Shown piece after piece: positions 1,761 to 27,953 of a stretch of 64,000 bases of DNA (positions within the stretch are counted from its first letter, which is position 1; each line of letters begins with the position of its first letter). The position numbers were made by a program, and so were the translations under genes. The notes beneath the pieces were generated by a model that ran no database searches, had not been told where the DNA came from, and saw only the letters and a list, made by a program, of their open reading frames with translations. The stretch lies in the NCBI RefSeq assembly GCF_019393635.1, contig NC_057867.1, forward strand, positions 5,032,821 through 5,096,820, written 5' to 3'. The DNA comes from Dromiciops gliroides (Eukaryota > Chordata > Mammalia > Microbiotheria > Microbiotheriidae).

Positions 1761-2127
1761 TAACGTATGCAAAGTACTTTGCAAACACGAAATCACTAAA
1801 GATGTATCAGCTATTGTGAAATGAATCTAATGTTAATGTCCCTTTCCAACACTTGGCATGGAATAGTCCATTGGTAGAGGAAGGCTTCCCATGTACCTGT
1901 TGAAAAGCAGGCATTGTTCCCAGAGAAGATGGTGCCTGACCCTCTGGAGCGCCAAACCTGATGGAGAAGAGATGGAGGTCAGTATAAGGATGGGATTATA
2001 ATGTGACCTTAAAAACCACAAAACGTGGAAACCAGAAGTGCCACGTGGAACTGCTATAGCCACCACACTCATCACCTTGGGAAGACTCCTGCTTCCTCTG
2101 GGATTGCCATTAGAACCTCACACACAT

Positions 2128-2290
2128 GGGGCAGCTAGGTGATGCAATGGATAGAGCACCAGCCCTGGAGTCAGGAGGACCTGAGTTCAAATCTGGTCTC
2201 AGTCACTTGACACTTACTAGCTGTGTGACCCTGGACAAGTCACTTAACCCCAATTGCCTCACAAAAAACCAAAACAAAACAAAACAAAAA
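2128..2290 (+). mobile_element. WSINE1-type SINE with target duplication
   Basis: Full head-to-tail copy ending in an AAAAC-rich tail. Flanked by direct repeats of AACCTCACACACA (about 2114 and 2289), a clear target-site duplication. Confidence 0.9.
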
Positions 2291-2329
2291 CCTCACACAC
2301 ACAATGGGATAGCACCACTGTCCTAAAAG

Positions 2330-6077: not shown

Positions 6078-7140
6078 CTTTTTATAAATGAGTTTTTATT
6101 ATTTTTTTCTGTTCTTTACATTAGTTATTGCAAATATTCCTCATTTTCCCATCCCAGACAGCTATCCCATATAGCATAGTATTTTTTAGAGAGTAAAAAA
6201 AATCAACACTAATGATTAATATGTAAGAAGAGTTCAAAATCATATACAATGTGTGACACCTGTGGACCTCCTACCTCCATGAAGGGGTAGGTTGAGGGTG
6301 TTCTCTCATTGGTTGTTGTCCTTTGTGCTAGAAGGGGACCAGAATGACATCACTTATGTCAGGGTCAAGGTACAGTATGTCTGACTGGCTGATCAGACCC
6401 ATATGAGCTTGGAAGGCTCTACCCCAGGTTGGACACAAATAGTCCATATCCATATGAACATATAAGTGCCCTCACATTTTCTCATTGGAGTTCTGTTTGA
6501 ACTTTATAATTTTGTTACATTTACTTTTAATTTTTTTGGTGTGTGACTGTTCTTTCCGTTTACACTGTAGTTACCACGTACATTGTTTTCTTGGCTCTGC
6601 TTACCTGACTCTACATCAGTTCGTATAGATCTTTCTATGCTTCCCTGTATTCATCACACACATCATATCTTATAGCACATCCCATGACATTCATGTATGG
6701 CAGCTTGTTTAGCCATTACTCAATTGATGGGCATCTACTTTGTTTTGAATTCTTAGCTACCAGGGGGAAAAAAGTGCTGCTATAAATATTTTGTAGTAAA
6801 TGGGGACTTTCTCCTTATCAAATGCTTCCTTGGGGTATAAGCCCAGTGATGGCACCTCTGGTTAAAAAGCTATAGACATTTTAGTAATTTTATTTGTTTA
6901 ATTCCAAATTGCTTTTCAAAATAGCTGGACCAATTCACAGCTCCACCAACAATGTTGGAGCATGCCTATCATTCTACATCCCCTCCAATATTGTTTTGAT
7001 TTGTGTTTTTCTTATTATTAGTGATCTGGAGCATTCCTTCATGTAGTTGGGAATATTTTGCAATTCTTTTGAGAACTGTTTTTTCATATCTTTTAAAAGC
7101 TTATCTGCTGAGAAATGGCTATTTGTTCATATCTGAAAAT
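6078..7140 (-). mobile_element. L1 3' region, antisense
   Basis: Starts AAATGAGTTTTTATTATTTT, then CACCTGTGGACCTCCTACC, AATTGATGGGCATCTACTTTG, CTCCACCAACAATGTTGGAG and TTATTATTAGTGATCTGGAGC. The order matches the other L1 copies here. Many small changes; no open ORF2. Confidence 0.78.
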
Positions 7141-7770
7141 GTTTGACTCACTTGACAATTGAGACCATTACCTCTCTGTTAAGGAGGTAGATAGCATGCT
7201 TCATGGTTGGTCCTCTGGCATAGACCTTGGTCACTACATTGATCAGGGCCCTTATGTCTTTCACAATGTTGTTATCACTGTATGGATTCTTCTCCTGGCT
7301 CTGCTTGCCCCACTCTGAATCAAGCCCCATAAATCTTCCCATTTTTTTTCTGAAATCATGCCACTCATCACTTCCCACAGTACATTCATATAACACAATC
7401 CACAGAGCCATTCACCAGTTGATGCATACCTTCTTGAATCCCAGATTTTTGCCATGACATCCTCGTACACATGGATTCCTTCCCACTCTATTTGATTTCC
7501 TTGGGGAAGTGGCTAGATCAAAAGGTTTAGTTTAGTGCAGTTTAGTGGTTTCTGAGTTATACCTCCAAATTGCTTTCTGTAATGGGGGGGGGGAGACTAA
7601 TTCACAGATCTAGCAACAGTGCACCAGTGTGCCTGTTTTCCTGCAGTATCTCCAACAACTGTCACTTTGATTCTCTGTCATTTTTGCCACTCTGGTAGGA
7701 TGTGAGGTGAATGTCAGGGCTACTCTAAGATACATAATCCATTTTCAACCAACTTCTTCATTGTGTGATT
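7141..7770 (-). mobile_element. Second L1-like 3' piece, antisense
   Basis: A separate start (ACCATTACCTCTCTGTTAAGG) is followed by TCTTCTCCTGGCTCTGCTTG, ATTCACCAGTTGATGCATACC, TTTCCTTGGGGAAGTGGC and CTAGCAACAGTGCACCAGTG. The layout is that of an L1 3' end, but the subfamily differs from the neighbouring copy. Confidence 0.5.
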
Positions 7771-8065
7771 TTTAAAAAATTTATATCCTCATCCATACTT
7801 CAAGGTATTATGGCATAATAGCCAGAGAGCTATTATGTTGGGTTTAAGTCCAACCTAATAACAGACACATAATAACAGCTTTGGGACCCTATTGTTAGAG
7901 TTTTCTTACCTAGATGTTGGCAAGGAAATTCTAGGTCTAGTACCTATCCTATGCATTTGGAAATTATTATGGTCTATGGTATAAGCCTGTTTTGTTGTTG
8001 TTGTTGTTGTTTTGTTTTTGTTTTTTGCCAAAATGGCATCCAGAATTTCTGGGAGTTCCTATCCT

Positions 8066-8226
8066 CTCATTTATTTATTTATTTATTGGGGTGGGGCAAT
8101 GGGAGTTAAGTGACTTGCCCAGGGTCACACAGCTAGTAAGTGTCAAGTGTCTGAGGCTGGATTTGAACCTCAGGTACTCCTGAATCCAGGGCTGGTGCTT
8201 TATCCACTGCGTCACCTAGCTGCCCC
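8066..8226 (-). mobile_element. WSINE1-type SINE, antisense
   Basis: TTTA-rich tail, then GGGGCAATGGGAGTTAAGTGACTTGCCC, ending CACCTAGCTGCCCC. Confidence 0.88.
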
Positions 8227-8399
8227 TATTTATTTTTTTAAATAGATTTTTATTTATATATTTTGGTTTTTTTTACATCACCATAGTTTTCCCTCTCCAT
8301 CTCAGAGAGCCATCTCATAAAACAACTAGTATTTTTAATAGTATTCTATTTATTTTTTCCAATTACATGTAAAGATAGTTTTCAACATTTAAAAAAATC

Positions 8400-8579
8400 C
8401 TATTATTTATTTATTTTATTTATTTATTTTATTACTTTTTTTTGGCAGGGCAATGAGGGTTAAGTGACTTGCCCAGGGTCACACAGCTAGTAAGTGTCAA
8501 GTGTTTGAGGTCTGATTTGAACTCAGGTCCTCCTGAATCCAGGGCTGGTGCTTTATCTACTGTGCCACCTAGCTGCCCC
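8400..8579 (-). mobile_element. WSINE1-type SINE, antisense
   Basis: Long TTTA/TTTT tail, GGCAATGAGGGTTAAGTGACTTGCCC, core, and CACCTAGCTGCCCC end. Confidence 0.88.
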
Positions 8580-8612
8580 TAAAGCTGATATGACCCACAG
8601 CCCAGCCCCTAC

Positions 8613-8795
8613 TTTTTTTTCTTTTTCTTTTCTTTTTCTTTCTTTTTTTTTTTTTGTGGTGGGGCAATGCAGGTTAAGTGATTTGCCCAGGGTCACACAG
8701 CTAGTAAGTGTCAAGTGTCTGAGGCCGTATTTTGAACTCAGGTCTTCCTGAATCCAGGGCTGGTGCTTCATCTACTGCACCACCTAGCTGCCCCC
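8613..8795 (-). mobile_element. WSINE1-type SINE, antisense
   Basis: Pyrimidine-rich tail, GGGGCAATGCAGGTTAAGTGATTTGCCC, ending CACCTAGCTGCCCCC. It lies 33 bp from the previous SINE. Confidence 0.88.
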
Positions 8796-9135
8796 TCAAC
8801 ATTTATTTTTGTAAGATTTTGAGTTCACATTTTTCTCTCTTCCTCCCTTTCCTCCTCCCTTCCCTCCTCCCTCCCCAAGACAGCAAGCAATCTGATAAAG
8901 GTTATATGGTACAATCATGATAAACATATTTCTATATTAGTCATGAAGAACTAGTATTTTTTAAGATGAAATAAAATGGAAGAGAAAAAAATCAGTATCA
9001 ACATATCAGAAAAGTCTGGAAATATGTGCAAGGTATAATGTATAACATGGGTGGACCTACCACCTCTGCAAAGGGGAAGGATGAGAGGATGAAGGTGTCT
9101 TCTCATGGCTTGTATTTCAGGCTGTGCTTATTCTT

Positions 9136-9284
9136 TTTTTAAATTTAATTTATTTTTTTAATTAATAAAGTATTTTATTTTTTTCCCGTTACACATAAAG
9201 ATAGTTCTCAACTTTTGTTTATACAAGCTTTCCAATTTCAGATTTTTCTCCCTCCCTCCCCCTCCCCTAGACACCAGGCAATCT

Positions 9285-9326
<42 letters not shown>

Positions 9327-9592
9327 TCAAAATAGAAAAACAACAGCACCAAAACCAAAAGAAATAGTATGGTTCATTCAGCATCTATACTCCACAGTTC
9401 TTTTTTTTTCCTGGAACTCTTCTGTACCATTGCATTGGTGAGAAGAATATAGTCCATCACAGTAGATCAACACTCAATGTTGATGATACTGTGTACAATG
9501 TTCTTCTGGTTCTGCTCATCTCACTCATCATCAGCCCATGCAAGACCCTCCAGGTTTCTCTGAACTCCTCCTGCTCATCATTTCTTACACGT
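9136..9592 (-). mobile_element. 5'-truncated L1 inserted in the long L1
   Basis: Bounded by GTGCTTATTCTT at about 9126 and 9593, a target duplication. It contains CCCGTTACACATAAAGATAG, a (TA)n run, and ATTGCATTGGTGAGAAGAATATAGTCC. Confidence 0.7.
9282..9321. repeat. (TA)n microsatellite
   Basis: About twenty uninterrupted TA units within an L1 piece. Confidence 0.9.
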
Positions 9593-10409
9593 GCTTATTC
9601 TTTATAATTCTGCAAGATTCACTTTTGATATTTTTGTGGTTGTTTTTCCCATTTATATTGTTATAGTTATTGTTTACATTGTTTTCTTGGCTCTGCGGAT
9701 TTCACTCTATCAATGCAGAGATCTTTCCATGGTTTTCTGTATCTATCACATTCACCATTTTTATAGCAGAGTAATATTCATGTACTACAATTAGTTTAGT
9801 CATCCCCCAATTGATGGGCATGCACTTTTTTCCAGTTCTTTACTCTCTCAAAAAGTCCTCCTTATATTCTGGTGTATTTGGGGACTTTCTTTTTATCATT
9901 AGCTCCTTGGGTTATAAGCATAATAATGGAATTGCTGGATCAAAGTGTTTGGATTTTTTCATCACTTTATTTGTGTAATTCCAAATTCCTTTCCACAATA
10001 GTTATACTGAGTCACAGCTCCACCAACAATGCACTAATGTGCCTATCATTCCACAACCCCTTCAGTATGGACTATTCCCATCTTTTATCATCTTTTGCCT
10101 ATTTTCAGGGTGCTAAGTAAAACTTTGAGATTGTTTTGATTTTCATTTCTCTTATTATTAGCAATTTGAACCCTTTTTAATGTGGAGGTCAATAGTTTTC
10201 AATTCTTCTTTTGAAAATAGTTCATATCCTTTGAGTACTTATCTATTGGGAAATGGCTTTTGTTCATATATATGTTTGTGTATGAATATGTATGTGTGTA
10301 TATATATATGCATATATATCATATTGTCTATATACCTTGTGTACTAAACCCTCATCAGAGAAATTTGATATAAATTTTTTTCATTTGACTGCTTTCCTTT
10401 ATTTTAATA

Positions 10410-10820
10410 TACTCCTTTATTTTTTAATTTTATTTTTACTTCAAGTTCCAAATTATCTGGCCCCTCTACCACTCAGTGAGAAGGCAAGAAATATAATACC
10501 CGTCATACATATGAAGTCATGAAAACATATTTCCACATTAGCCATGTTCCAGGGCAGGGAAAGAAAGAAAAATAAAGAAAAAACATGAATCCATCAGTTT
10601 TCTATCTGGAGGTAGTTTAAATAGTATTTATATCATGAGTCTTTTGGAGTTGTGGTGGATCAGAATAACTTAAGTCATTCATAGTTCCTCATTGTACAGT
10701 GTTTCCATTACCATGTATAATGTTCTCCTGGTTCTGCTCACTTCACTTTGCACCAGTGCATATAAACCTTCTCAGGTATTTCTGAAACCATCCCCATCAA
10801 CATTTCTTACAGCACAATAA
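10410..10820 (-). mobile_element. L1 3' piece inserted in the long L1
   Basis: TTTTTTAATTTTATTTTTACTTCAAGTTCC start, CTGGTTCTGCTCACTTCACTTTGC, and ATTTCTTACAGCACAATAAC end. The host L1 text resumes at CTTATCCTAGGTGCATTAATTTTC. Confidence 0.55.
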
Positions 10821-10950
10821 CTTTTTCTTCTTATCCTAGGTGCATTAATTTTCTTTATGGAGAAGCTCTTCAGCTTCATGTATTCAAAGTTATCTATTTC
10901 ATCTTTTGTGATTGCCTCTGTCTATTTTTTGGTTAAGAATCCATCTCTTA

Positions 10951-11080
10951 GGGACAGCACTGGCCCTGGAGTCAGGAAGACCTGAATTCAAGTCTGGCCT
11001 TAGACACTTGACACTTACTAGCTGTGTGACCCTGGGCAAGTCACTTAACCCCAATTGCCTCACCAAAAAAAAAAAAAAAA
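10951..11080 (+). mobile_element. 5'-truncated WSINE1-type SINE
   Basis: Lacks the tRNA-like head and begins GGGACAGCACTGGCCCTGGAG. Ends CCAATTGCCTCACC plus a pure A tail. Flanked by GAATCCATCTCTTA at 10937 and 11081. Confidence 0.9.
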
Positions 11081-11373
11081 GAATCCATCTCTTACTGATA
11101 GATGTGATCTATGGTCTGCTTCTCTTCTAATTTTTTAATAGTAAAATCACATACACATTTAGAAAGTATTGTGAAACATAATGTAAGGTATTAGTCGGAG
11201 CCTCATTTCTGCCAGACTACTTTCCAGTTTTCCTATCAGTTTTTTAAAAAAAATCAAATAGGGAGTTATTTCCTAAGTAATTTGTGTTTTCCTGTTTATC
11301 AAACACTGGGTAATTGAGTGGCATTGTTTCTTATTCTCCCTTCTCTAGTCTGTTCCATTGATTTACCTCTCTG

Positions 11374-11532
11374 GGTTTTTGTTGTTGTTGTTGTTTTTTG
11401 GCATGGCAATGAGGGTTAAGTGACTTGCCCAAAGTCACACAGCTAGTGTCAAGTGTCTAAGGTCAGATTTGAACTCAGGTGCTCCTGAATCCAGGGCTGG
11501 TGCTTTATCCACTGTTCCACCTAGCTGCCCTC
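11374..11532 (-). mobile_element. WSINE1-type SINE, antisense
   Basis: GTT-rich tail; flanked by TACCTCTCTG at 11364-11373 and 11533-11542. Confidence 0.9.
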
Positions 11533-11699
11533 TACCTCTCTGTTTTTTAACCAGTGTCAGGTGGTTTTGATGCCTGCTGCTTTATATATAGTTTTTACAT
11601 AGTTTGATCTCTTGAAGTGATATTTCCCCTTTGTCCATACCTCTATTTATTATTTCTCTTGATATTCTGTATCTTTTGTTTTTCCAAATGAATGTTATT

Positions 11700-11850
11700 G
11701 GGGCAGCTAGATGGCGCAGTGGTTAAAGCACCAGCCCTGGATTCAGGAGTACCTGAGTTCAAATCCGGCCTCAGACACTTAACACTTACTAGCTGTGTGA
11801 CCCTGGGCAAGTCACTTAACCCCCATTGCCCCGCAAAAAAAAAAAAAAAA
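11700..11850 (+). mobile_element. WSINE1-type SINE with target duplication
   Basis: Complete copy with a pure A tail. Flanked by CCAAATGAATGTTATT at 11684-11699 and 11852-11867. The perfect repeats suggest a fairly young insertion. Confidence 0.93.
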
Positions 11851-13623
11851 CCCAAATGAATGTTATTTTATCAAGTCCTATGAAGGATATCGTTAATTAT
11901 TTGATTGGTATCTCATTAAAATTGTAAATTAACTTTGGTAATATCGTCATGTTTATTATATTATCACAGACCCATCATGTGTTGTTCTTGATTTCTTTAA
12001 GAAGCATTTCATAATTAGATCTATACTAATCTTTTATGTGCCTTGGTGGATTGATCCCCAGATATTTTATACATTTTGTTATTTGTGATTTGAAGTGGGA
12101 TTTCTTTTTCTGTGATTGTCTCTTGGATTTGTAGAAATGCAGTTGACTATTGATTGTTCTTTAAAAGTTTGAAAAAATTCTTCTGTGGTATCACGTTGAT
12201 GGTTTGTTTATTTTAATTTTGTCTTCTTTTGAGTTATCTGGATAAAGGTTTATCAACTTTTTCGTTTTTTCATAACCAACTTTTAGTTTTTGTCATTTCT
12301 ATAGGGTTGTTTATGTTTGTTTCTTTTCAGGTTATTTATTTCTCCTCTAATTTTTAATATCTCCTTTCTTGTGCTTATTTTAGGTTTATTCATTGACTTT
12401 CTAATTTTTAAATGCATAGTCAGCTACTTAATTCTCTCTTTATCTATTTTGTTAATGTATGCTCGTAGAGATATTATTTTTTTCCTGAGGACTGCTTTAT
12501 CTGAACATTAGAAATTTTGATATCATTATGATTTTTTTCACATAATTATATTGTTTTTATGATTCATTCTTTGACTCACTCATTATTTAGGATTTCATTG
12601 TTGAATCCCCATTTGTGTCTGTGTGCTTTGTTTATGGTCCCTCAACCAATTACTATTTTTATTGTATTATGGTCTGTAAGGTCTATATTTACAATTGCTG
12701 CCTTTCTACATTTTCTTTCAATACTTCTGTAGCCTAGTACACGATCAATTTTATAAAGATTCCTTGTGGTACTGAGAAATACATATATCCTTTAGTGGTC
12801 TCATTTAGAAGAAGCTGTACATCTTTTAGGTCTAGTTTCTACAGTAATTTTTTCAGGTCTTTATTTTTCCTGTTGTTTATCTTTCTGTTATCCATAACTG
12901 AGAGAGGGATATTGAAATCTCTGTCACTGTTGTGTTACTGTTTAAGTTTTCTTGTAGTTCATTCAGTGTTTCCTTTGTGAATTTCAATGCTAAGTCATTT
13001 GGGAGCATAGAAGTTTAATACTGATTTCATCTTTTGTCTGTGGTTCCTTTCTGCATAATGAAGTTTCTTTGCTTATCCATTTTTATGTTGTAAATATTTG
13101 GTTTTGCTTTGTCTGATATCATGATTGTAACTCCAGGGTTTTTTAGATTCACCTGATGCAGTCAATTTTTTCCCCCCAGTCCTTCATTTTTATTCTGCGT
13201 GTGTCTGTTTTTAAAAAGTACCTCCTGTAAGCAACATTTTGTAGTGTATTGTTTTTCTATCAAATCTATAGTTTTTTTTCCATTTTATTGGATTATTAAT
13301 CTATTCACAAAATTCTGTGAGTTAGGTTTATCTCTAATATGTTTTTTCGAATTAAGATTTTTTCCCCTCTTATTCTTTTGTAAACATCTGTAGGGAGGGC
13401 ATCAGGTGGTTTAGTCCATGATGCTTCAGGCCTCTTTCTACACCTTTTTTCCTATTTGACTAATGCTTTCACCTTTGTCTTGTTGTGTACATTTAGAAAG
13501 TCTCTTAATCATATTTCTGTTGGTATCTTGTTGTGTCCTTGGTTGCTGTATTTGTTTCCCCCTCTTGTATTCCTGTTGTCTGGAATGTTTTTAAAGCACA
13601 TAATTTCTTTTAGGGATGTTTCA

Positions 13624-13768
13624 GGGGGCAGCTAGGTACTGCAGTGTATAAAGCACCAGCCCTGGGTTCAGAAGGCCCTGAGTTCAAATTCGGCCTCAGA
13701 CATTTGACACTTACTAGCTGCATGACCCTGGTCAAGTCACTTAACCCTCATTGCCCCGCCCCCCAAAA
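13624..13768 (+). mobile_element. WSINE1-type SINE
   Basis: GGGGGCAGCTAGGTACTGCAG head to CATTGCCCCGCCCCCC. Flanked by near-identical GGATGTTTCA and GAATGTTTCA. Confidence 0.88.
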
Positions 13769-13952
13769 GAATGTTTCAAACACTTCTTTTTTATTGAATA
13801 TCCATCTTTTTTTCACTAATGGTTAGGCTAAATTTGCAGGGTAGGTCTCTTTGGGCTGCCTCTTGAGCCCTATTGCTCTTTAGAATATGTTATTCAGTTA
13901 TTTGATTGGTATAGCATTAAGAAGGACAGTGGTATAAGAAATATAATTCCCA

Positions 13953-14100
13953 GGGGCAGCTAGGTGGCACAGTGAATAAAGCACTGGCTCTGGATTCAGG
14001 AGGACCTGAGTTCAGGTCCAGCCTCAAACACTTAACACTTACTAGCTGTGTGACTCTGGGCAAGTCACTTAACCATCATTGCCCCGCAAAAAAAGAAAAA
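13953..14100 (+). mobile_element. WSINE1-type SINE
   Basis: GGGGCAGCTAGGTGGCACAG head, CATTGCCCCGC tail and A-rich end. ATTCCCAGG occurs before the element and again after a short TA tract. Confidence 0.88.
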
Positions 14101-14205
14101 GGAATATATATATATACATATGATTCCCAGGGTCTTGGTGAGGGCTGTTACACATAGAAAATGTTCTTTTCACTTCTCATTTTCATTGTGAATCTGTGTA
14201 TTTTT

Positions 14206-14353
14206 TTATATATTTTTTGGGGTGAGGCAATTGGGATTAAGTGACTTGCCTAGGGTCACACAGCTAGTGTTAAGTGTCTGAGGTCGGATTTGAACTCAGG
14301 TATTCCTGACTCCAGGGCCGGTACTCTATCCACTGTGCCACCTAGCTGCCCCA
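14206..14353 (-). mobile_element. WSINE1-type SINE, antisense
   Basis: GGGTGAGGCAATTGGGATTAAGTG to CACCTAGCTGCCCC. Flanked by AATCTGTGTATTTTTT. Confidence 0.88.
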
Positions 14354-14474
14354 AATCTGTGTATTTTTTAGATGTATTTCTTCTGTTCAGTAAATTGCTT
14401 GGCTTTGTTCTGTTATACATTTCGCCACTCTTTTGTTTTTGACTTTGTATTCTTTAATTCATTCTCAATTTATT

Positions 14475-14622
14475 TATTATTTTTTTTGCAGGGCAATGAG
14501 GGCTAAATGACTTGCACAGGGTCACACAGCTAGTAAGTGTCAATTGTCAGAAGCTGGATTTGAACTCAGGTCTTCCTGAATCCAGGGCTGGTGCTTTATC
14601 TACTGCACCATGTAGCTGTCCC
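14475..14622 (-). mobile_element. WSINE1-type SINE, antisense
   Basis: GCAGGGCAATGAGGGCTAAATG to CATGTAGCTGTCCCC. Flanked by TCATTCTCAATT. Confidence 0.86.
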
Positions 14623-15319
14623 CTCATTCTCAATTAAGATCACAATTATTAGACTTGTATTTTCTTCCATTTACTTATTTTATTTTGAATTTTATCCACC
14701 TTGTTCTCTAAGTCAATTTTTTTGTCCCTGTGATTAATTTTGCGTATACAATTTATAGCTCATCTGTACCCACATACTCTCTTCTCACTCCCATTTGTAT
14801 CTCAAGTTCTCTGACTTAAATTATAAATGTCCTTGCTTTCTTTTTCCTTTTTCTTTTAGGTGTTATTTTATCTCTTTTGAGCCTATTCTTTCCCCACCCA
14901 ACTATTCTCCACCCATGTATTCTATGGCACCAAGATTGGTTCTTTGTAGAAAAGTTTTTCAAGAAGTTTAGCAGTGAAAGAGAGTAATAAGATAGGTGGG
15001 TTAGAAGCAGGGATGTGTTGGTAAATATTTAACAACCAGCTCTCCAAAAAAAAGATGTGCCAACACACTTTTCTGTTTAATCTGCATTATTAACATTTTC
15101 TTCACCATTTTCTTAGATTTAGACAATCAACAGAATAATCAAGCCCTGGTTTGTAGCCTTTCCTGATATTCAAGGTATAAATGCTCACACTGAAAATTTT
15201 ACAGTTGACTCTCTTGAGTTCGTTTGAGCTAACTCAAGTATACCACTGGTTAGAAGGACCAAATGAAACTTTTTTTCAGGATTGGGGACCCCTGAGCATG
15301 TATGTAATAATAAAAGTTT

Positions 15320-15530
15320 GCTCTCTATAACACTTTAAGGTTTGCAAAATACATAACATTCATTATTTCATTTGATTTTCACAAAAACCTAATGAGATAG
15401 GCATTACCATTTTATAGACAAGGAAACAGGCTTACAGTAGTTGCATGACATGTCTGTCCATGGTCTCATAGCCAATCCGTGTCAAAGTGGGGATTTCACC
15501 CTACATCTCTCTGGTTGTCAAGTCCAATGC
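15320..15530 (-). repeat. MIR/THER1-type relic, antisense
   Basis: ACACTTTAAGGTTTGCAAAATAC, CCTAATGAGATAGGCATTACC, TTTATAGACAAGGAAACAGG: the antisense order of an old MIR-related SINE. Confidence 0.55.
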
Positions 15531-16224
15531 AGAAAGGAACCCCATGGCAAGGGAGAGATCGAAGATGCTTGTGAGAGCTAGGGTGCTGCTGGACCAGGGT
15601 CCTATAGGAACACAGGGCAGGGAATAGGAGCAAGGGAGCAGGTAGAGGGATTGTGGTTGGTGAGTTGCATAGTCCTCCCTTCTGTGACTAGAGGGAAGGA
15701 GGAAAGAGAGTGTAAAATGCTAAAAAGGCTTGAGGAATAGAGGAGTGGCCTGAGGTAGTTCCCAACTGATGACTTCAATCTTCCTGGTGAAGTCTTCATG
15801 CTCTGAGAGCAAAGTGAATGAATTTAATCCAAATGTCAGATCTCTGCCCAATCCTACCTTTTTTCATCTAACCCGCTTGTTTCTGAAAGCAAAAATATAC
15901 AAAGAGCCAGCTTTGTCAGTATACTGATTTTTATTTATTTGCCATTCTTGCAGTCATTAGCTCAAAATATTGGTGGAGATTTGCAGGAGGGGTAGACAGG
16001 AGAGATGAAAATAAGAAAGAACATGACTTCCCCTTTCACTGGGTGGATGAAGGGCTTCAGTGAAGATGAGTTCTCTGGAAAATTAGGGCTTCTAAAGAGA
16101 AATGGTAAGATTACCTGCACTTCTATCAGATACCTGGTAACCACACCTCTAATAAAGACAACTGAAGAGAGAAGGTCAGTTAAAAATACCTAGTGGTTCT
16201 CAAATTCATCTTAGTTGTTTCTTA
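15531..16224. other. No gene recognised
   Basis: Short frames only (up to 65 codons). No domain or repeat identified with confidence. Confidence 0.4.
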
Positions 16225-17115
16225 CAGAGAAATAGCATTGTGTTTACATTCACACACTATACCTAGTGCAGCCATTCCCCAACTGTTTCCAATTTCTTGC
16301 TACCATAAAAGGTGTTGCTAGAAATATTTGGGGGTATTCAGAACCTTTCCCTCAGTCTTTGACCTTGTGCTAAATGTCTTGCAAAATAATATCACTGTGG
16401 GGGCAGCTAGGTGGATAAAGCACTGGCCCTGGATTCAGGAGTACCTGAATTCAAATCTGGCCTCAGACATTTGACGCTTATTAGCTGTGTGACTCTGGGT
16501 AAGTCACTTAACCCTCATTGCCCCACAAAAAAATAATATCACTGTGTCAAAGGATCTAAACAATTAAATATCTTTCTAGCAGAGTTCCAATTTGTTTTCC
16601 TGAACAATTGGCCCAATTCCCATCTCCACTAATGATGCATTTTGGGACTTTTCTCCCCATAATAGCCCCATCAAACATTAACTATTTCCATCTTTTATCA
16701 TCATCGACAGTCTTCAGGATATGATATAAAATGGCAGAGTTGTTTTGATTTACATTTTTCTTAATATTAGTGATACGGAGCAATTTTTCATATAGGCATT
16801 GATAATTTACATTTCATTTTCTGAAAACTTTGTTCATATTCTTTGACCACTTATCTATTGGGGAATGGCTCTTGGTCTTATGTATTTGTATCAATTCTAT
16901 ATAAATCTAGACTAGCAGACCTTTATCAGAGATATATGCTATGCAGATTTTACCCCCAATCAGTAGTATCTCTTTTTAAGGTTATTATGTTGATTTTTGT
17001 CAGTGCAAAAGCTCTTAAGTTTCATATAATCCAAACAATCTATTTTATCTATTATGATCTCCTCTATGCCTGTCTTAGTTATGAATTCTTCCCAAAACTA
17101 TAGATCCAAAGGGTA
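16225..17115 (-). mobile_element. L1 3' region, antisense
   Basis: TTCCCCAACTGTTTCCAATTTC, CATCTCCACTAATGATGC, CCACTTATCTATTGGGGAATGG, GCAAAAGCTCTTAAGTTTCA. Interrupted by a SINE at 16400-16533. Confidence 0.72.
16400..16533 (+). mobile_element. WSINE1-type SINE
   Basis: GGGGCAGCTAGGTGGATAAAGC with a short internal deletion in the head; ends CATTGCCCCAC plus A tail. Flanked by ATAATATCACTGTG. Confidence 0.9.
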
Positions 17116-17484
17116 CTGCCTTCCATTCTCTGCTGGTTTCTTTTTCTATGATGTGGCCACATATCCAATTGGAGCTTATTTTCGGCCTATTTTCTGACTT
17201 CTGCAGTTGGAGCCACCTGCCACCTGGAAGCCAAATGCTATCCACAGCAGGCTTTCCTGTCACAGGCTATAATGCTAGTTGACTTTGACTAGAAGGAGCA
17301 TTCTCAGCCTTTGGGAGAAAGTGAGTTTGAGTCTAACTCATGGCTTGAACAAAATGACTCAAATTTGGTCAGTGGCTTTGCTTCTGAAGCTCGTGCCACT
17401 GCTGTCACCCAGGACCTTGGCCCAATCTGACCATGCATGGCCCAAGCTGGGACACAATTGACTTCTAGAAATGTTAGCACAAGG

Positions 17485-17630
17485 CCAGCTAGGTGGCACA
17501 GTGGATAGAGCACCGGCCCTGGAGTCAGGAAGACCTGAGTTCAAATCCGGCCTCAGACACTTAACATTTACTAGCTATGTGACCCTAGGCAGGTCACTTA
17601 ACCCCAATTGCCTCACTAAAAAAAAAAAAA
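17485..17630 (+). mobile_element. WSINE1-type SINE
   Basis: AGGCCAGCTAGGTGGCACAG head and CAATTGCCTCACT plus A tail. Flanked by AGAAATGTTAGCAC. It lies just past the 3' end of the TNIP-like coding region. Confidence 0.9.
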
Positions 17631-17801: not shown

Positions 17802-18319
17802 CTAAAAGTTTCGGTGTGAGGGGGGCACCTGGGCCTCAAACTCCTGCTTCTTATAGTATTTTGTGCCGTCATTGCATTTCAGTGTATGTTGCTCACATTG
17901 CTTGCTGTAGCCACTTGGCCTAGGCCTGGTGCAGTTGACTATGGAAGAAGCAGAAAGCTTCTCCTTGCCATTGCACTCACAGGCCCCACTGATGGGGTTT
18001 ATGCCATGAGGTTTGTTCAGGATCCGTTGGAAGACTTGCTTGTCAGAGCGCTCCTTCTTAAAGTCATCTTCAAAGAGCTTGAGCTACAGAGGAAACAAAG
18101 GAGTCAATGGAGAGGATGGAGGTTGGCTAGAGTGGTAGGCTGGCCTGAGACCATAGAGAGCACCTGCCCAGAGACATGAAGCGACTTGCCTAAAGTCATA
18201 CAGGTAGCCATATCTGATGTCCCACCATGAATAATCCTGGCAAGAAGCCTTTCCTCAGAGCTTGCATTTGCATTTAGAATCAGAGCACCTGACACATTCT
18301 CTCTCTCTCTGTCTCTCTG

Positions 18320-18356
<37 letters not shown>

Positions 18357-18511
18357 TTTTCTCCCTCCCTCCCTTCTTCCTTCCCTCTCCCCCTCCCCTT
18401 CACTGTTTCTCTCTTTTTCTATCTGTCCCTTACTGTGTTTCTTTCTGTGTCTATCCCTCACTGTCTCTGTCTCTGTCTAACCGTTATCCTCTGTGTCTCT
18501 GTGTCTCTGTC

Positions 18512-18545
<34 letters not shown>

Positions 18546-21500
18546 GCTATCCCTCACTGTCTCTTTTTCTTTCTCTCTCTGTCTCTCCATCGCTGTCTCT
18601 CTCTTGTTTAGCACCTAGGTAGAGAAGAAACCTTTTTTCTATTTGTGAATTGTAAAAAGTGATTCTTACCCCTCACTCTCAGTGGAGTTCAATTCAGCCC
18701 AACAAACTTTTCTTAAGAGGTGACCTTACTAGGTACTGGGAAGAGCAATAGGCATATGTGCATGAATCCAGTGCCTTATGTTTACCCAGTACTCATGCAC
18801 CTGATAGAACTGGACCCTGGGGATGGCCCTCCGAGGACAAAGGGATGTGTATCTTTTTACAGGTGAAATAAAGGGAGGTGGTGGAATTTGTTCAAGTCCC
18901 ATGGTGAGCCAGTCCCAGAGTCAGAACCTTGCGGTGATACCTAGTCTAGATGCTAGTTCACCTTCTGTTCTTGGATGGGGTCCCAGCTACTCAGTGCACA
19001 GGTTACTGAGAGGGGCTTGCCCTGGATTTCTGGGCAGGGGACCCTTCCTGCTAATAGTCTGCAGACTCTGGGGCCTCAGTTTCTTGATCAAGGCTTAGCC
19101 TGAAGTGAAGCAGGGAATCCTTGCAATGTGGGGCCTGGAACCAGCTGTACAAAGCAACCAACCTGTTCCTGCAGAAGTGTCATTTGCTGTCTCACGTCCT
19201 CTTCCTTCTTGCGGAGGTTTGCATTCTCTGCTTTTATTCGTTCCCGGGTTTTGTGCTCAGTCAGGAGATCAACTTCAAACGTGTCAGTCTGTTGGAAAAC
19301 ACAGCCAGAGGGGTCACATAGAAAAGCTGAGAACGGGGCTTCTCCCTAAGAGTAGGAACCCCCATTCCCCTGAGTGCTGATGTGCCCAAACATTGACCAG
19401 CAGCCAGGCCAGCAGGGCAACAGTAGGAGGGAATTGACCCCAGCCAGGGCCTGCCAGAGTAGTTGGAAGGGGTGGGTAACCACTGGGGTAGGGTATGGGG
19501 GGATGTCGGACTGCCAAACACCTCCACCTGGATATCCTGCCAGTCAGTCCCTCCAACTAGCCAGAAAGTATCCAAAGCAGAGTCGACTACATCCGTTCCC
19601 CCTGCCCGGGATTGAAACCTTGCAGTCTCCTGTGTCTCCAGAGTCTTCCTCCTCTCCCCCACTGTCAGTTGTTCAGTCCTCCTGATTCTCCTGCTGCAAT
19701 TTCTGGTCACTCCAAGGAATGTCAATAGTCTAGGTCCTGTCCTGGTTATTCAGACCTGTACTAGCACCATGGGCTCTGAATAGACTTCCCCCCTCCAATG
19801 TATGCTGCACACAAAATAGCTGCCTGAGCAGCCTGCAGCAGGCAGGGCCCAGCACTCCCTCACTCACAAACTTTTATTGGCTCCCTGTTACCTCTCAGAC
19901 AGACTCCCCACTTCCTAGTGTGCAAAGGATTGTAGACCGTGTGCCAGTCCTTGACCAGTGGAAAGAATTCTGCATTTGGAGGCTGAGGACCTGGGTTCGA
20001 ATTCCAGCTGTGTGATCAGTCTGCAGCTCTAGAGGTCAAGTCAGAGCTCCGGCTCTTAGCCTTGTGGGAGGTCACAGACACTTGGGGCAGTCCGGTAAAG
20101 AAGCCTCTGGACCCCTCCTCCAAATCGTGCATTTACATGCCTCAAGTAAAATGCATGGGGTTAGAAAGGAAATCGGCACAGTGATCAAAATATCGAGTGA
20201 AAAAAAAACCAAATCCATGGACCCCAAGTTAAGATCTCCTGGATTATGGGGAAAACCAAAGCATAGAGAAAATGCCTCGAGCATCTCAGCAGGCATAAGG
20301 CTCGGCTCAGGAAGCTGGCAGCAAGCTTTTTAAAAAATGCCACCTGCTTGGGGGCAACTAGGTGGCGCAGTGGATAGAGCACCAGCCCTGCATTCAGGAG
20401 GTCCTGAGTTCAAATGCAACCTCAGACACTTGACACTTATTAGCTGTGTGACCCTGGGCAAGTCATTTAACCCTCATTGCCCCACCAAAAAACAAAATGC
20501 CACCTCCTTTGGGATGACAGGAACAGGGTAGGGAGGAGTGGATCGCTTAGTTACAATCCAATTTAGAAAAAAATAATCTTGCTGTCTGGAACATGTCAAA
20601 TTAGTCCCGAGGTGAAGCATGAGACAGTCAAGCATTTTTTCCCGGGCTCTGCCCTGGCTCTAGGCAAGGAAGGAAGCCCTGAGTGATCACAGTACCTGGC
20701 ACTTCAAGGCCTCTAGCCGATGGATCAGGTCAATCACCTCTTTCTCTGAGCTGAAGAGGTCCAGTGGGTGCTTACAGCACATTGTCTTCTGTCCTTTCAC
20801 ATTGCCTAGCCCATGCTTGCGCTGGGCACTGTCCTTTAAGCTCTTTCTGGTCAGCAGGACTGGAGAAGTACCATAGCCTTCTAAGAAATTCTAAGAAAGC
20901 AAGAGGGATTTCAGCTCAGCCATCAATGGCTGCATAGTGTAGGGATGGATCAAAGCCTGCCCCTGTTACCCTGGGACTTCACGGGTACCACCAAAAAAAG
21001 CGAGGTCCGTTTTCTCCTGGTGAATGATATATGCTAACTACTGAGGAATGCTGTGGTTCCTGAGCTGACCACTTCCCTCTCTCATTCATCCTCCATCCAG
21101 TAGGAGTCACCAAACAGAGATGTCTTTAGAATTAGGGAATCCCAGAGTTGGAAGGGACATCTCAGAGGTCATCTCGTTCAACCCCACAGGAGCAGAAACC
21201 CTCTTTACAAGATCCCTGACAAATACTAGTAAGTGTCTAAAGTGGGATTTGTACCTATGCCTTTCTAACTCCACTCTAGAATTCTGCCTCTAATTGCAGA
21301 GTTGGAAGTAGAAGTCAGAGAAGTATTTGTCAGGGATCTTGTTAAAAGGGTTTCTGCTCCTGTGGGGTTGAACTAGGTGACCCCAGGGAAGTCACTGAAC
21401 CTCTTGGGGCCTCAGTTTCCTTATCTGTAAAATGGAGGTAATAATAGCACCTACCTCCTAGGGTTGTCGTGAGGATCAGAGGAGCTAACATAGGTAAAGC

Positions 21501-22666
21501 ACTTTGCAAACCTTGAAACATTGAAGATTCTATGAACTCTGAGCTGCCCGTGCTATCTGCCACTGCCTACCTCTCTGCTGTTTCCAAATGGGAGGAGTGG
21601 AGAGAAATGAGGAGCAAGCCGAATCACCACTCACCACCAGGGTCCGCCTCTCATTCTGGTGCACTTTGCTCTCAAGGTGCTTCACATATTCCTGGAGCTG
21701 CTGGTTCCTTTTAAGCTCCTGGAGAAGGCTTTGCTCATAGTACTCCTTCTTGTTCTGAAGAGAGATGCCAGACAGGCCAGGGGCCCTTTGAAGTACCCCT
21801 CTTGGTGCCCTCAAGAAGAGAGCTTAGTGTAGCCTGCCCGGTTCTTTTGTGTCTTCCTGGCCCTTCACCCACATTCCTGACAACCCCTGCAGTGCCAAGG
21901 TGGGCCTCTGGGCCACACCCCACGAGAGCTCCCGTTGGCTTCTTACCTGCTCGAGTTCCAGCTTTACAGTCAGGCGCTCAGTCCGCTGCTTGAGGCTGAC
22001 CACCTCCATCTGCAGGGTGCTCATCTTCTGCTGCATTTGCAAGGTGGTCGTGTGGTAGATGTGGTCCCATTCCTGATTCAGCTTCATAAGCTGGAGGGAA
22101 AGTTCAAAGTGATGTTGGGGATGGGGGGATCCTCTGAGCCAGCACAACCCCCAATTCAGTCTCTCTTAGCCCGCAGAATACAACAGGACCCTCCATAGTC
22201 CATGTTCCCATCATGGTCCCTGGGGGACTAACAGGAGATACTGATAGTAATAGTTATGGTAACTTTGTGACTCAGAACCCCTGTTTGAGATTATTCCAAC
22301 TATCCTTCACCCATCACTCCTTTATTCCTATCCCTTTCAACCCAACTCAGCCCTGCCTCCCCCATAATGCCCCACTCTGAGGCTACCCACCCTTCCACTC
22401 TGCTCTCCATTGGTGATGGACCTCTTTCCCACTCTTTCCATCTTTTGGCTCTCTCCTGATGACCTGGCCTCCCTGGCCTCCTTTTCTAGCACTGGCTGCA
22501 TTTTCACTGATCCTCCTCCTTGCTTCCCATCCCCACTTCTAGGTTCTCCCCCTACCATGGTCCTTCTTTGAGCTTCACTCAATCCATGCCTACCAGCCAA
22601 TCAGGCAAATGTTAGCAGAAACTTCTCCCCCCCCCACTTCCCCCCTCCTATGCCAATGTTGTACCA

Positions 22667-22703
<37 letters not shown>

Positions 22704-25700
22704 TGGTAGGGAGTGTATATCTATTATAAAGAGCATATCGAACTGAAAAATACCAGTAGCATGCTGAAATATTGGGGCACGTGCCTTTAGATCAATAATA
22801 GAAGGGGCTTCTTAGACAGCTACAGGCTGACCTGGAGGTCCAGAAGGGCCCTTCCCCCTCAGGGAGCCTCTGCTTCTGTCCTTGGCATCCCTGGGCAGGA
22901 GAAGAGTTTGAAGGTAGCTGCTGGGATATCTTCCTCCTTTCTTCTGCCTCTTTTCTTCTCCTCTCTTGCCTTCCCCTTGTTCCCCCCAGAGTCTCCCAGG
23001 ACAAAAAGAGGCCTCTTTGTTGAGAGATTTTACCTCTTTGTTGAGCCTCTGGAGCTCTGTAGTCTTGTTCAGCAGAAGCATCTTCTCCTCATCAGCGGAG
23101 GAGATGTAGGTGGCCCCCTCCTCTGAGTCATTCTTCTCTGAACCCCTGGGCTCAGGATAGGCGTGGAGTTTGGTCTCCCTAGAAGAGAAAAAGCCAAGTG
23201 GGGGAAGCACCTCCGAGTTAGAGCTTGATGAGCTAGATGTTGTAGGACACATATTGGACAGAATATAAGAGGGAGAGTAGCTGGACCCAGGGGATGAGCT
23301 TTCCTGAGGAGGGACTATTAACCCCAAATAAGTCTGCAGCTGGTAGGACGTGAAAGGGGAGATCTTTTTAAGCAGAGGGTCACTATCAATTTAAGCCCAC
23401 CTGCACAGACACACATATGTGCATACACACACAAACACACATACCAACACCAGCAACAACAACATGTCAGACTAAAAAGAATTCTGGATTCAGTGTCATG
23501 GCTTTGGATCCTAGTTTTGCTCCCTCCTCGTTGTGTGACTTTGGGCAGTCATATCTCTCTGGACCTCAGTTCATTTGTAAAATGAGGGATTTGAACAAGA
23601 GAATCTCAAAGGCATTTTCCAGCTCTAAATTCTGTGATCGTGACTCTCAAGTTGAGGGTATAGGAAGTCTTGTCACTAGGGAGGTCTGCTGTCCTTCTGG
23701 GACATAGACTTGGGACATGACAGGGTACTTCCCATGACTTGTCAAGCCAGATGATTCGTGTGGGCATAAAATACAGTGGAAAAAGCACTGGGTTCAAATC
23801 TTACTTTGGGTGGTCTTGGAGAAGTCCTTTGACTTCTCTCGGTTTCCTCATCTGTAAAATGAGGCAGTTAGGCTAGATGGCCTATAGGGCCCCTTCCAGC
23901 TCTGAAATCCTGGACAAGAACCTGGAGACCTTCCAGGAAATGGGTACGCTTTTTACCATTGTTGTTCACAGAAAGTGAGGGCTTCAGAAGAGAAAGGAAA
24001 TTTGGGGAAAGCTGAAAGTTCTCCAGGGGAAGTCAGCTAGGTGTGGGGGGGGGGGTTGGCTTTCCCGAGAAAGAAATTTGAAAGGCACAAAGAGAAATGA
24101 TTCTGATGAAAAGGAAAAACAGAAACACTGACCAACTTAAATTTTAGAATGACATGTACCAAAGGGGAAAGCAAGGGAATGTAACTGAGGATGCTCATGA
24201 AAGCATCTTAAAAATGTCAAGGGACACACTTAACTGAAAATGGTTGAGGCTGGCCAGCGATGCCAAAGCTGACAAGGTGGGGCAGAGAGAGAGGTGGCAT
24301 GGAGGGAGGTTGGTATAAAGCCATTTGAGAATAAGTCTCCAGGTCACATCGGACCCCTGGTTTTTGCCTTTCTCTATCCAGCCTTTTGGGATAGCTCATT
24401 TTCAGCCTGTTTCTGGAGGAGCTGCTCCCCAGGGGGCCAGTCCCTGACACTTCCTTCTTGGGGAAGGTATATTTCTCCAAGACGTGCTAGGTGCCTCTTT
24501 GGGCATAAGCATGCTTTGGACCTGGCCTGGCAGGGTGGGGTAAGACAGACAAAAGGTATGGAGGTGGAAAAGGAGCTTGGGCCCAAAGGGGGAAATCCAG
24601 TGAGGAGCAGCCCCAGAATGAGAGGCGCCAAGGCTTTAGGCTTTGGGGTGGGGCAGAAAACTCGAGGGGCTAGAGTGGGCTCCATCAAGTAAAGGAACCT
24701 GGAGGATAATAGCCGTGGTACCAGTCTCACAGGCTTGTCAGGAGATGATGAGATAAATGAGGTAAGAATGGGGCAAAAGTACTTGGCAAGCTTCTGAATG
24801 CTCAGTAAATGGCCACTAGTATTCCCTCTGGTGGAATGTAAGCTCCTTGAGGTCAGGCGCTTTTATCTTTTCCCCCATAGTACCTAGCACAGTGCTGGTA
24901 GTAAACACTTCATTGGATTCAGGGCATATGGGAAAGGCCCTGTGGGCCCTAGTATTCCCACCAGGAATCTGAGCCACACAGGACCTGGTCACTGCTCAGG
25001 TCATCTCAGTCTCCAGTGGTATCTATTGGCTTCTTGTGTTATTCCCTAATGACCAACAGGGCCTGGCTTCTTCCCACCCAGTTTCAGAAGAGCTAAGGGT
25101 TAACAAGCAATCCCTCTGAAAGCAAAAGAGCTCTGGAGCTGCGCCCCCCCCCCCCTGCCTTGTGTGATCTCTAAGCTGATCTGAGGGCAGGAGGGTCTTG
25201 GAAAGGGGGAAGATGAGTCACTGGACTCTTGCCAACAGTGGGGTCCCTCTTTCTGAGCTATCAATTTTCCCTTCTCCCAGGATATTTCTCTAATCAAAAG
25301 AACTGCCTGTAAGAAATGTCAAAGTTAGTCATTCGGCCTTGTGATTTCACCTGGTTTTCTCTGTTTGGTGGGGGGAGGGGGAGGGTTTTGTTTCCCCATC
25401 TAGTCTGAAAGCCCTTTTTGGGCAAGGCAATATCTTCTCTTCTTTCCTGCCCCACAGAATTAGGCGGGCAGTCAGCCAATCAGCATTTATTAGGCACCCA
25501 CTATGTGCCAGGCATTGTGTTAAATGCTAGGGATACAAAGAAAGGCAAAAGACGGCCCCTGTTCTCAAGGAGCTCAGATCCGAAGCAGGGACACATCGAC
25601 AACTCTGTAAAAACAAGCTATAGACAAGATAGATTGGGGATAAGCAACAGAAGGGAGCCACTGGAACTGAGGAGGGTAGGAAAAGGCTTCCTGGAGGGAT

Positions 25701-27953
25701 TTAGACAGGACTTGAAGGAAGCCAGGAAAGCTGGGAAGTGGAGAAGAGGAGACAGCCTGGTGCTCAGCAAACTCCTGAAGAAATGGGGTGGGGGGCTGGT
25801 TTCTAATATACAAGGGGCATGTTGGGGTAAGCCCCAAGGGGAGCTGGGAGCCAGTGTCCTGGGGTTGTTCTTCCTAGTGGGACCCAGTGGGATGAAGATC
25901 CTTGAGGACAGAGTTTTCATCTGCTGTTGTCCCTGTTAACCTGCACAGTGGCCAGCACATAGTAGGTGCTTAATAAATGCTTGATAAATGAATGAATAAG
26001 TGGGTTGAAGAGATCAAGGAGGAGGCAGCAGTGGTTGTCTCCATGGTAAGTCTGAAATTTTGGAGATAAAAGAATACTTTTGATTTCATTCAAGTGAAAC
26101 ATTCAGTTACAGGTAAAATGAGGTAAATGAATGCAAACTTCTAATTCCCGGCCCCCCAAGGGCATCTTCCTAACGCAAAGGATATAGTCCCCACAGAGCA
26201 GTCAACTCTTGCAAAGCTTCAAAGAAAGAAATGATTGGGACTTTTCCTTCAGTAAGAATGTCTGACTTAGCACAGATTCCAAATGGGTTGGATCTAAGGG
26301 CTCCCCACCACTGCCAGAGACAGGGAAGAGGAACTTCTGTGGAATGACTTGGAGGCAGGCAAAGGTCCCTCAGGAGTGGCGGAAAGCTGTGACAAAGGAA
26401 GAGGAACCTGGCATGGGTGATGCCAGCATTGACATGTACCAGGAGAGGGCACCCTCCTCAGAGAAAGGCTGGCTGCTTGGCTGCCTTCCTCAAAACCACC
26501 CTGTGAGGTTTAGTCATTCAATTAGTATTATAGCCATTTTATAGAAAAAGAGACTGAGGCCCAGAGAGAGGAAGTGGCTTGCCCACAGTTGCACAGGGAG
26601 CCAACACAAAGCTTGGTTCACATCCCACTTAATATCCATGAGACTGTGGGCAAGTCACTCAACACGAGAAGCTCTGTTTCCTCATCTCAAAAGTGGAGGA
26701 GTAACCCTAAGTAGGGGAGCAAGGGAGGCAATTGAGCCTGTGCCTCAGGAAGGGTAGAGAGGCTGGAGGCCGGGAGACCAATAAGGGGATGGAAGGAAGA
26801 GAGATTCTGGAGGGAGGCCTAGCCCAGATGCAGCTGACCTCAGGACCCTCTCGATTTCTCCTGGCCCCTAGGGAACTGGGGTGACTGGGCAGCCTTGCTT
26901 ACAGGCTTTCTCGGAGCCTTGGCTCTTGGCGTCTGAAGTTTCCTTCCGGGCTCCCACAGTTAGTCATGGCATCGCTGTTGCCTGGTACTCAAGAGGAACA
27001 TGGGTTTGGTGGGCTCTCTTCCCCCCAGCCCCCAAAGGAACCACCTTGATGAGGGCCTGTCTGTAAGCAGACAGGCTGAGAGCTGAGCTTTCTTTCCTCA
27101 AAAGTTGCCCAAGAGACTGGTAATGAACAAACCCTTTGAGGCTCTGCTGAGACCAGCCGAGAGAAGTAACTGGTCTCAAAGGAGGCGCTTTGCCTTCCGA
27201 GAGCTGTGTGCCAAGGCCAGTGATAGCATGAGCCCTGGGGAGAGGCAGGGTCCAAATAAGAAAGTGTGAGCGGCCTGTGCACAGTGCCTTCAGGAGAAGC
27301 AGGCAGGCTGGACCAGAGAGCTTGGTGCTTTGGGAGCCTGGCCCAGCAGGGAGGAGTGAGCAGAGGATGGCAGGGTTACAAAGACCAGGTCTGAGTGGTC
27401 TTTGTAGGAGACTAGTGAATGAGGGTCACGGCTTTGAGAGCAGAGGGTGGGACCCAAGGGTGAATGTGAGCCCCTAAGAGGTCTCTGCACTGAGTCTGTG
27501 GAGTGGCCTGAGAGGGAGACCAGAACAAGACAATTTGAGGGGGCAGCTAGGTGGCTCTGCAGTGGATAAAGCACCAGCCCTGGATTCAGGAGGACCTGAG
27601 TTCAAATCTGATCTCAGATACTTGACATTTACTGTGTGACCTTGGGCAAGTCACTTAACCCTCATTGCCCTGCCAAAGACAGAGAGATGATGATGATGGT
27701 GTTCCCCTGTTGTGACTCCCAGCCCCCTCCCTTCAATTCTCCATTACTGCCTGCCCCCCTTTCCTCCAGGCCCTACCTACCTGGAGAGAGAATTCGAGTT
27801 CAGAGGTGGAGGCTGGCAGTTCTTGTCCACCGGAGCAAGTGTTGGGGTTTGGGTCTGGTGGTTAGCCCCATCTGGAAACCTTCTTTCCCGACTTGTCCAG
27901 AAATATGAGCTGTCCTGCTGACAGGCAGGCAGGGAAATGGAAGGACTGCTCAT
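17802..27953 (-). CDS. TNIP/ABIN-like coiled-coil protein with UBAN ubiquitin-binding motif
   Basis: Hand-built model with coding exons 27953-27781, 23178-23034, 22090-21947, 21754-21635, 20890-20696, 19288-19163 and 18083-17802. It gives 1,185 nt, 394 residues and a TAG stop. All junctions are GT-AG; the first is phase 2 and the rest phase 0. Residues about 1-90 are Ser/Pro-rich and look disordered. About 90-195 is heptad coiled coil, including KLNQEWDHIY, which resembles the VNKQWDQHF segment of ABIN-1. Residues 302-320 read LKLFEDDFKKERSDKQVFQ, very close to the ABIN UBAN core (I/FEEDFQRERSDRER). The last 65 residues contain CEC, a lone C, and a C-x2-H-x3-C group. Family knowledge: ABINs bind linear/K63 ubiquitin and A20 and damp NF-kB signalling in the cytosol. 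TNIP1, TNIP2 and TNIP3 lie elsewhere in eutherians, so this may be an extra paralogue. The first exon is the least certain part; the UBAN exon is secure. Confidence 0.8.
18298..18605. repeat. CT/GTCT-rich simple repeat
   Basis: Polypyrimidine tract on the plus strand with TCTC, CTCC and about ten pure GTCT units at 18505-18545. It lies in the last intron of the TNIP-like gene, where it is purine-rich in transcript orientation. Confidence 0.9.
20350..20490 (+). mobile_element. WSINE1-type SINE in a TNIP-like intron
   Basis: GGGGGCAACTAGGTGGCGCAG to CATTGCCCCACC plus A tail. Flanked by near-identical AAATGCCACCTGCTT and AAATGCCACCTCCTT. Confidence 0.88.
21380..21530 (+). repeat. MIR/THER1 3' half
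   Basis: GGGGCCTCAGTTTCCTTATCTGTAAAATGG, ATAATAGCACCTACCTCCTAGGGTTG, GTAAAGCACTTTGCAAACC. An old relic inside an intron of the TNIP-like gene. Confidence 0.65.
22671..22701. repeat. (AC)n microsatellite
   Basis: About fifteen AC units in the second intron of the TNIP-like gene. Confidence 0.9.
23500..23915 (+). repeat. Two MIR-type relics in tandem
   Basis: Both 23500-23640 and 23770-23915 show TGTGTGACTTTGGGCAGTC- or TGGTCTTGGAGAAGTCC-type cores, then CTCAGTT or GTTTCCTCATCTGTAAAATGAGG. Both lie in the first intron of the TNIP-like gene. Confidence 0.5.
25488..25990 (+). repeat. Ancient interspersed repeat piece
   Basis: GCATTTATTAGGCACCCACTATGTGCCAGGCATTGTG to CATAGTAGGTGCTTAATAAATGC. 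Same old family as at 590-1760. A 173-codon frame across it is accidental. Confidence 0.5.
26903..26967 (-). other. Possible alternative first coding exon of the TNIP-like gene
   Basis: Inside intron 1 an ATG at 26967 opens 21 codons beginning MTNCGSPEGNF. They run into a GTAAGC donor after two bases of a codon. This is the same phase 2 as the main first exon, so it could splice to the exon at 23178 without shifting the frame. It is only a phase and motif match. No promoter element was recognised and chance is a serious alternative. Confidence 0.25.
27540..27678 (+). mobile_element. WSINE1-type SINE
   Basis: GGGGGCAGCTAGGTGGCTCTGCAG to CATTGCCCTGCC. It lies about 100 bp downstream of the first-exon donor of the TNIP-like gene, in intron 1. 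Confidence 0.88.

Follow-up and report, generated by a model that had tools for sequence, protein, structure and literature searches.

The ABIN (TNIP) proteins restrain inflammation by way of ubiquitin. To our knowledge, eutherian mammals have three ABIN genes, all of them on chromosomes other than the X. Among the ABIN homology domains (AHDs), AHD3 is confined to ABIN1 and ABIN3, and AHD4 occurs in all ABINs. In one account, AHD1 is needed for binding of A20 and the UBAN, termed AHD2 there, for polyubiquitin (PMC8286839). The AHD1-UBAN region of human TNIP1 has been placed at about residues 417-509 (PMC7697625), and the D472N substitution in TNIP1 is described as impairing ubiquitin binding (PMC11940065). 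The gene considered here lies in a window of 64,000 nucleotides of the Dromiciops gliroides genome (C7:5032821-5096820). Judged on its sequence, it is likely to be a protein-coding, X-linked fourth ABIN of the TNIP1/TNIP3 type, strongly diverged and with no close copy found.

TNIP1 (ABIN1) has in common with the window gene a WD-type segment, a 42-codon UBAN exon, a spacing of 153 residues and phase-0 introns that precede the WD segment and flank the UBAN exon. The two differ in that only 44 of 231 residues are identical, AHD1 is out of place in the window gene, other internal introns do not correspond, and a second UBAN-like core is found in exon 7 of the window gene. TNIP3 (ABIN3), in its human form, shares the motif DFKKERSD with this exon 7 core, but it has a locus of its own on contig C6, with an apparent remnant there, and its spacing is 154. 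TNIP2 (ABIN2) belongs to the same UBAN family and also has a phase-0 intron before the UBAN; it differs in a spacing of 83 in the human protein and in its whole-protein profile, which scores no better than shuffles, and no zinc finger was found by Pfam in the window protein, as against TNIP2. In CEP55, OPTN and IKBKG/NEMO, the likeness is a UBAN-like segment after a phase-0 intron.

Gene model and chromosomal setting

The gene is predicted on the minus strand of the window as seven exons with GT-AG boundaries at all six introns (phases 2, 0, 0, 0, 0 and 0, in order) and a frame of 394 residues; the exon coordinates and strand of the initial annotation hold. Exon 1 (27781..27953) carries the ATG and residues 1-58, which are not coil-like. 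The coiled coil begins in exon 2 (23034..23178; residues 58/59-106), where ELQRLNKEL resembles the AHD1 core. Exon 3 (21947..22090; residues 107-154) starts with LMKLNQEWD, aligned to LLEVNKQWD of TNIP1, and exon 4 (21635..21754; residues 155-194) is coil in which SKVHQNERRT resembles AHD3 of TNIP1, in a different order. Exon 5 (20696..20890; residues 195-259) is a spacer ending in LEALKCQ. Exon 6 (19163..19288; residues 260-301), with 42 codons and phase 0 on both sides, stands at the position of the TNIP1 UBAN exon and holds a worn UBAN, and exon 7 (17802..18083; residues 302-394 and the stop) has the second UBAN-like core at its start, followed by a non-coil tail.

When GT-AG choices at most 4 bases from the exon edges were combined, an open frame was obtained in two combinations, of 394 or 393 residues, the exon 4 donor being the sole difference. 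A scan of the 1185 coding bases detected no stops, no frameshifts and no non-GT-AG junctions. Splice sites and frame are intact, and the architecture of the coil and UBAN exon is collinear with that of TNIP1. A codon-usage model trained on 1420 codons from the TNIP1, TNIP2 and CEP55 exons of the same genome supported exons 2-6 in their coding frame and was positive for codons 1-20 of exon 7. For exon 1 and the final stretch of 73 codons, at least one of the other two frames scored as well as or better than the coding frame; of 1285 overlapping, stop-free draws from introns, 71 attained the score of the tail, which is mild support; the 5' and 3' ends of the predicted gene are provisional. Donors scored with a simple matrix were low for exon 5 (-0.02), exon 6 (2.0) and exon 2 (2.24), and are outscored by two unused donors inside exon 7 with last bases at 17981 (2.73) and 17897 (3.53). 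Use of either could possibly lead to further exons and another C-terminus. The closest AATAAA lies about 1.9 kb beyond the stop.

The genome searched comprises 3.30 Gb in 17 contigs. Contig C7 (85 Mb) also contains IKBKG, at 80.24 Mb, and because IKBKG is a gene that we take to be X-linked, the contig was taken as the X chromosome, which bears out the X-linked position proposed for the window gene. PFKFB1, named as a neighbour, is likewise supported by PFKFB1-type exons on the minus strand at 48.9-56.2 kb of the window. Among four open reading frames tried there against Pfam, three match 6PF2K and one matches His_Phos_1, with one 6PF2K match and the His_Phos_1 match falling just under the family cut-offs. 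The MAGED neighbour is unconfirmed, as both open reading frames judged MAGED by eye (37.8-38.5 kb, plus strand) gave no Pfam match. On the other side, positions 1-17500 of the window contain no stop-to-stop open reading frame of at least 110 codons; several stretches there look by eye like decayed LINE open reading frame pieces and tRNA-derived SINE copies.

Placement within the ABIN family

Human TNIP1-3 and CEP55 served as reference sequences. Against the family profiles, the window protein scored 20.3 bits for TNIP1 and 18.8 for TNIP3; none of 2000 heptad-preserving shuffles reached either score, the best attaining 8.5 and 6.6 bits, respectively. CEP55, whose core (D-R-Q) recalls that of exon 7 (D-K-Q), was ruled out as nearest relative (-6.7 bits, reached by 1687 of 2000 shuffles). 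With two versions of the TNIP2 row, the TNIP2 profile gave -5.1 bits (1775 of 2000 shuffles) and, corrected, -1.9 bits (1174 of 2000); the highest-scoring single stretch had 5.9 bits (7 of 2000). Human TNIP1 used alone as a profile gave 30.0 bits (0 of 2000 shuffles, best 7.9). As yardsticks for the TNIP1 family profile, human TNIP3 scored 154.7 bits and human TNIP2 20.8. The TNIP1 profile match is restricted to the central coil and UBAN of the window protein. The protein is far diverged: its best PDB match, TNIP1, has only E 3.3e-4, and Pfam CC2-LZ is matched with E 1.3e-4 and 22.8 bits, below the family cut-off of 35.3.

A gapless diagonal with human TNIP1 (offset 206) joins 44 identical residues in 231 (about 19%) with a sum of +102, against -5 for the runner-up diagonal and 26 for the best of 1000 heptad shuffles, none of which reached it. 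Positive segments cover residues 94-106 (+9), 107-154 (+70), 260-301 (+65) and 302-324 (+21), and unmatched ones residues 155-194 (-18) and 195-259 (-45), with 8 identities in 105 positions over 155-259. By exon, identity amounts to 12/48 in exon 3, 6/65 in exon 5 (negative sum) and 15/42 in exon 6. Equal spacing of 153 residues was set aside as proof of exon-by-exon homology and is not relied on because the middle of the coil is without match. The diagonal superposes three of five introns, all in phase 0, on those of TNIP1 of the same genome, namely the one preceding LMKLNQEWD and the two that border exon 6; two internal introns of the aligned stretch are absent from TNIP1 positions. Coincidence of at least three of five by chance has a probability of about 9e-5 in a simple uniform simulation.

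Four tree runs on an 84-column block, which is small for deeper questions, separated TNIP2 and CEP55 from TNIP1, TNIP3 and the window gene (UFBoot 98-100). The window gene forms a long branch beside TNIP1, with no firm branching order among these three; it does not nest tightly inside TNIP3 or another known member. OPTN and NEMO, when added, both landed beside TNIP3 without support. Altogether, profiles, diagonal, shuffles, introns and trees agree with the initial annotation that the gene belongs to the ABIN family.

Of the other homology domains, AHD1 gave no profile match at its expected place just upstream of the UBAN, so A20 binding by the predicted protein is doubtful. The AHD1 profile scored 7.6 bits on ELQRLNKEL of exon 2 (5 of 2000 heptad shuffles reached this) and 2.3 bits on a stretch of exon 4, and the AHD3-like LESKVHQNERRT scored 14.3 bits (5 of 2000) out of TNIP1 order; these motifs are short, weak and misordered. 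The WD segment LMKLNQEWD, assumed here to correspond to AHD4, follows a shared phase-0 intron, and the WD profile alone gave 7.5 bits (31 of 2000 shuffles). By its sequence the window gene is classed as an ABIN homologue through homology of the central coil and UBAN, and not as a complete ABIN.

Two UBAN-like exons

A UBAN profile built from nine sequences matches the window protein twice, at residues 253-298 (17.0 bits, profile positions 2-47) and 294-319 (22.6 bits, profile positions 1-26), and both segments have an intron at the identical profile position. Scored as pieces, exon 6 reached 23.1 bits (equalled by 6 of 3000 heptad shuffles) and exon 7 29.1 bits (0 of 3000, best 27.4); among the 1122 of 1243 other coil windows of human TNIP1-3 and CEP55 that were scored, the best had 19.6 bits. 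By this measure, the UBAN likeness of exon 6 is modest. The motif LKLFEDDFKKERSDKQVFQ (18027..18083, minus strand), named the UBAN core by the initial annotation, matches the profile at the start of exon 7 and is UBAN-like beyond chance. However, it is a second, truncated core in the exon that follows the positional UBAN, which we assign to exon 6, with its worn core, because of the gapless TNIP1 diagonal, the exon length and the introns. The converse arrangement, with exon 7 as positional UBAN and exon 6 as pre-UBAN coil, is permitted by the phmmer alignment, but these same three features favour exon 6.

Over 47 residues compared, exon 6 shares 18 with TNIP1, 11 with NEMO and 9 with OPTN. Residues 1-22 of exon 7 share 9 with the TNIP1 UBAN of the same genome and 9 with human TNIP3. 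TNIP1 has a 22-codon exon where the window gene has exon 7, and exon 7 was rejected as a plain homologue of this post-UBAN exon, with which its first 22 residues share 5 identities (6 with the human sequence) against 9 of 22 with the UBAN. The simplest account of the two UBAN-like exons is probably a tandem duplication of the UBAN exon.

Counterparts of TNIP1 D472 are found at D266 in exon 6 and D308 in exon 7, and, going by NEMO structures, the neighbours of D472 are ubiquitin contacts as well. By reading, exon 6 retains equivalents of D472, R480 and E481 but has L in place of F473 and H in place of R477. Exon 7 retains D472, F473 and R477 in an F-x-x-D-F-x-x-E-R patch, whereas K and Q replace R480 and E481, respectively, and its helix ends at the helix-breaking NKPHG, so that the second half of the UBAN helix is missing. 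With one core worn and the other truncated, binding of ubiquitin by the window protein is uncertain. For the same reason, a role as regulator of ubiquitin-dependent NF-kB signalling, proposed by the initial annotation, is an inference.

These changes bear on the strongest rival, an ABIN copy that is decaying or died recently, with splice sites and frame kept but ubiquitin-binding function lost. The state of the two cores would fit such a copy, as would the displaced AHD1, the weak coding support at both gene ends, some weak donors and the presence of another ABIN remnant, that of TNIP3, in the same genome. A long-dead gene, however, would be expected to show stops, frameshifts or broken junctions, and the 1185 coding bases are free of lesions despite about 19% identity to TNIP1 over 231 residues; decay is unlikely in our judgement. 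If the gene is instead a diverged, functional ABIN, its product would pair into a parallel coiled-coil dimer, as other UBAN proteins do, and would present two UBAN-like segments from consecutive exons, each with different contact residues altered. The most likely role, as a best guess from sequence, would be in NF-kB and cell-death signalling, as a polyubiquitin adaptor or competitor of weakened or altered activity that does not dependably bind A20.

Relatives in the same genome and the TNIP3 locus

A genome search with PF16516 returned six matches, two to OPTN (C5), two to IKBKG (C7), one to the TNIP1 UBAN exon (C2) and one, below cut-off, to the TNIP2 UBAN exon (C6); names were read from translations, and tblastn searches with the human sequences confirmed those of TNIP1 and TNIP2. 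When the window protein was searched exon by exon against the whole genome, it recovered its own seven exons; two further matches (E 0.40 and 1.7) were unconvincing, and no close paralogue was found. Because this search also missed TNIP1, it rules out close copies only, not distant ones. The window gene is distinct from TNIP1 (C2), TNIP2 (C6) and the TNIP3 locus (C6), in keeping with its description as an extra family member.

Human TNIP3 gave 28 genomic matches at E <= 10, two of them below 0.001, at C6:271957176 and at the TNIP1 exon. The former is a TNIP3 UBAN exon, 59% identical to human TNIP3 over 44 residues, with an in-frame TAG and EENF where EEDF is expected; the remnant occupies about 1679-1810 of C6:271955501-271958500. 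It lies 144 kb from NDNF, which we take to be the neighbour of TNIP3 in human. No second convincing TNIP3 exon was present among the plus-strand matches of the best 40 in the 11 kb read there, 8 kb of it upstream. From the in-frame stop, the changed core and the proximity of NDNF, TNIP3 looks dead in the part of the locus read. An elaboration that we hold improbable is that the two tandem UBAN-type exons contribute complementary contact halves and that the X gene would partly replace the dead TNIP3 as an inducible NF-kB brake.

It could also be supposed that TNIP3 itself moved away from the NDNF locus, left this remnant behind and diverged on the X. The damaged exon near NDNF, the TNIP1/TNIP3-type tree placement and the about equal match of exon 7 to the human TNIP3 UBAN and that of TNIP1 are compatible with such a move. 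The C6 exon, however, is nearer to human TNIP3 (59% over 44 residues) than are the X-gene exons (15/47 and 12/26) and is therefore TNIP3 itself, and the window gene fits TNIP1 at least equally, with the spacing of TNIP1 (153; TNIP3, 154), which makes translocation very unlikely. Least probable of all is a coiled-coil gene of another family made ABIN-like by heptad composition, for although coiled coils yield spurious matches (against the UBAN profile, the best of the other coil windows has 19.6 bits, and 6 of 3000 shuffles equal exon 6), no shuffle attained the TNIP1, TNIP3 or diagonal scores and introns coincide with TNIP1.

A diverged fourth ABIN may be either an ancestral gene lost in eutherians or a marsupial duplicate. 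In human, the corresponding interval lies beside MAGED2, and the locus offers a clean test of whether eutherians lost a gene there. A literature search, with automatic annotation of genome records outside its scope, found no mention of TNIP4, of TNIP3 in marsupials or of mammalian TNIP3 gene loss. If transcribed and conserved, the gene would give marsupials a fourth, sex-linked ABIN, in a species, Dromiciops gliroides, that seems to have lost one autosomal ABIN. A regulator of inflammation that depends on ubiquitin would then come under the paternal X inactivation of marsupials, and from its split or doubled UBAN it could be learnt how far a ubiquitin-binding helix tolerates change.

CEP55 combines an EABR segment with a NOA/UBAN. 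A genome search with the Pfam family EABR gave two matches, by position CEP55 and TNIP2, the window locus being absent from them. The TNIP2 match, to a family named for CEP55, lies at C6:94972021-94972110 and scores 57.7 bits, above the cut-off, a hint of shared ancestry of ABINs and CEP55.
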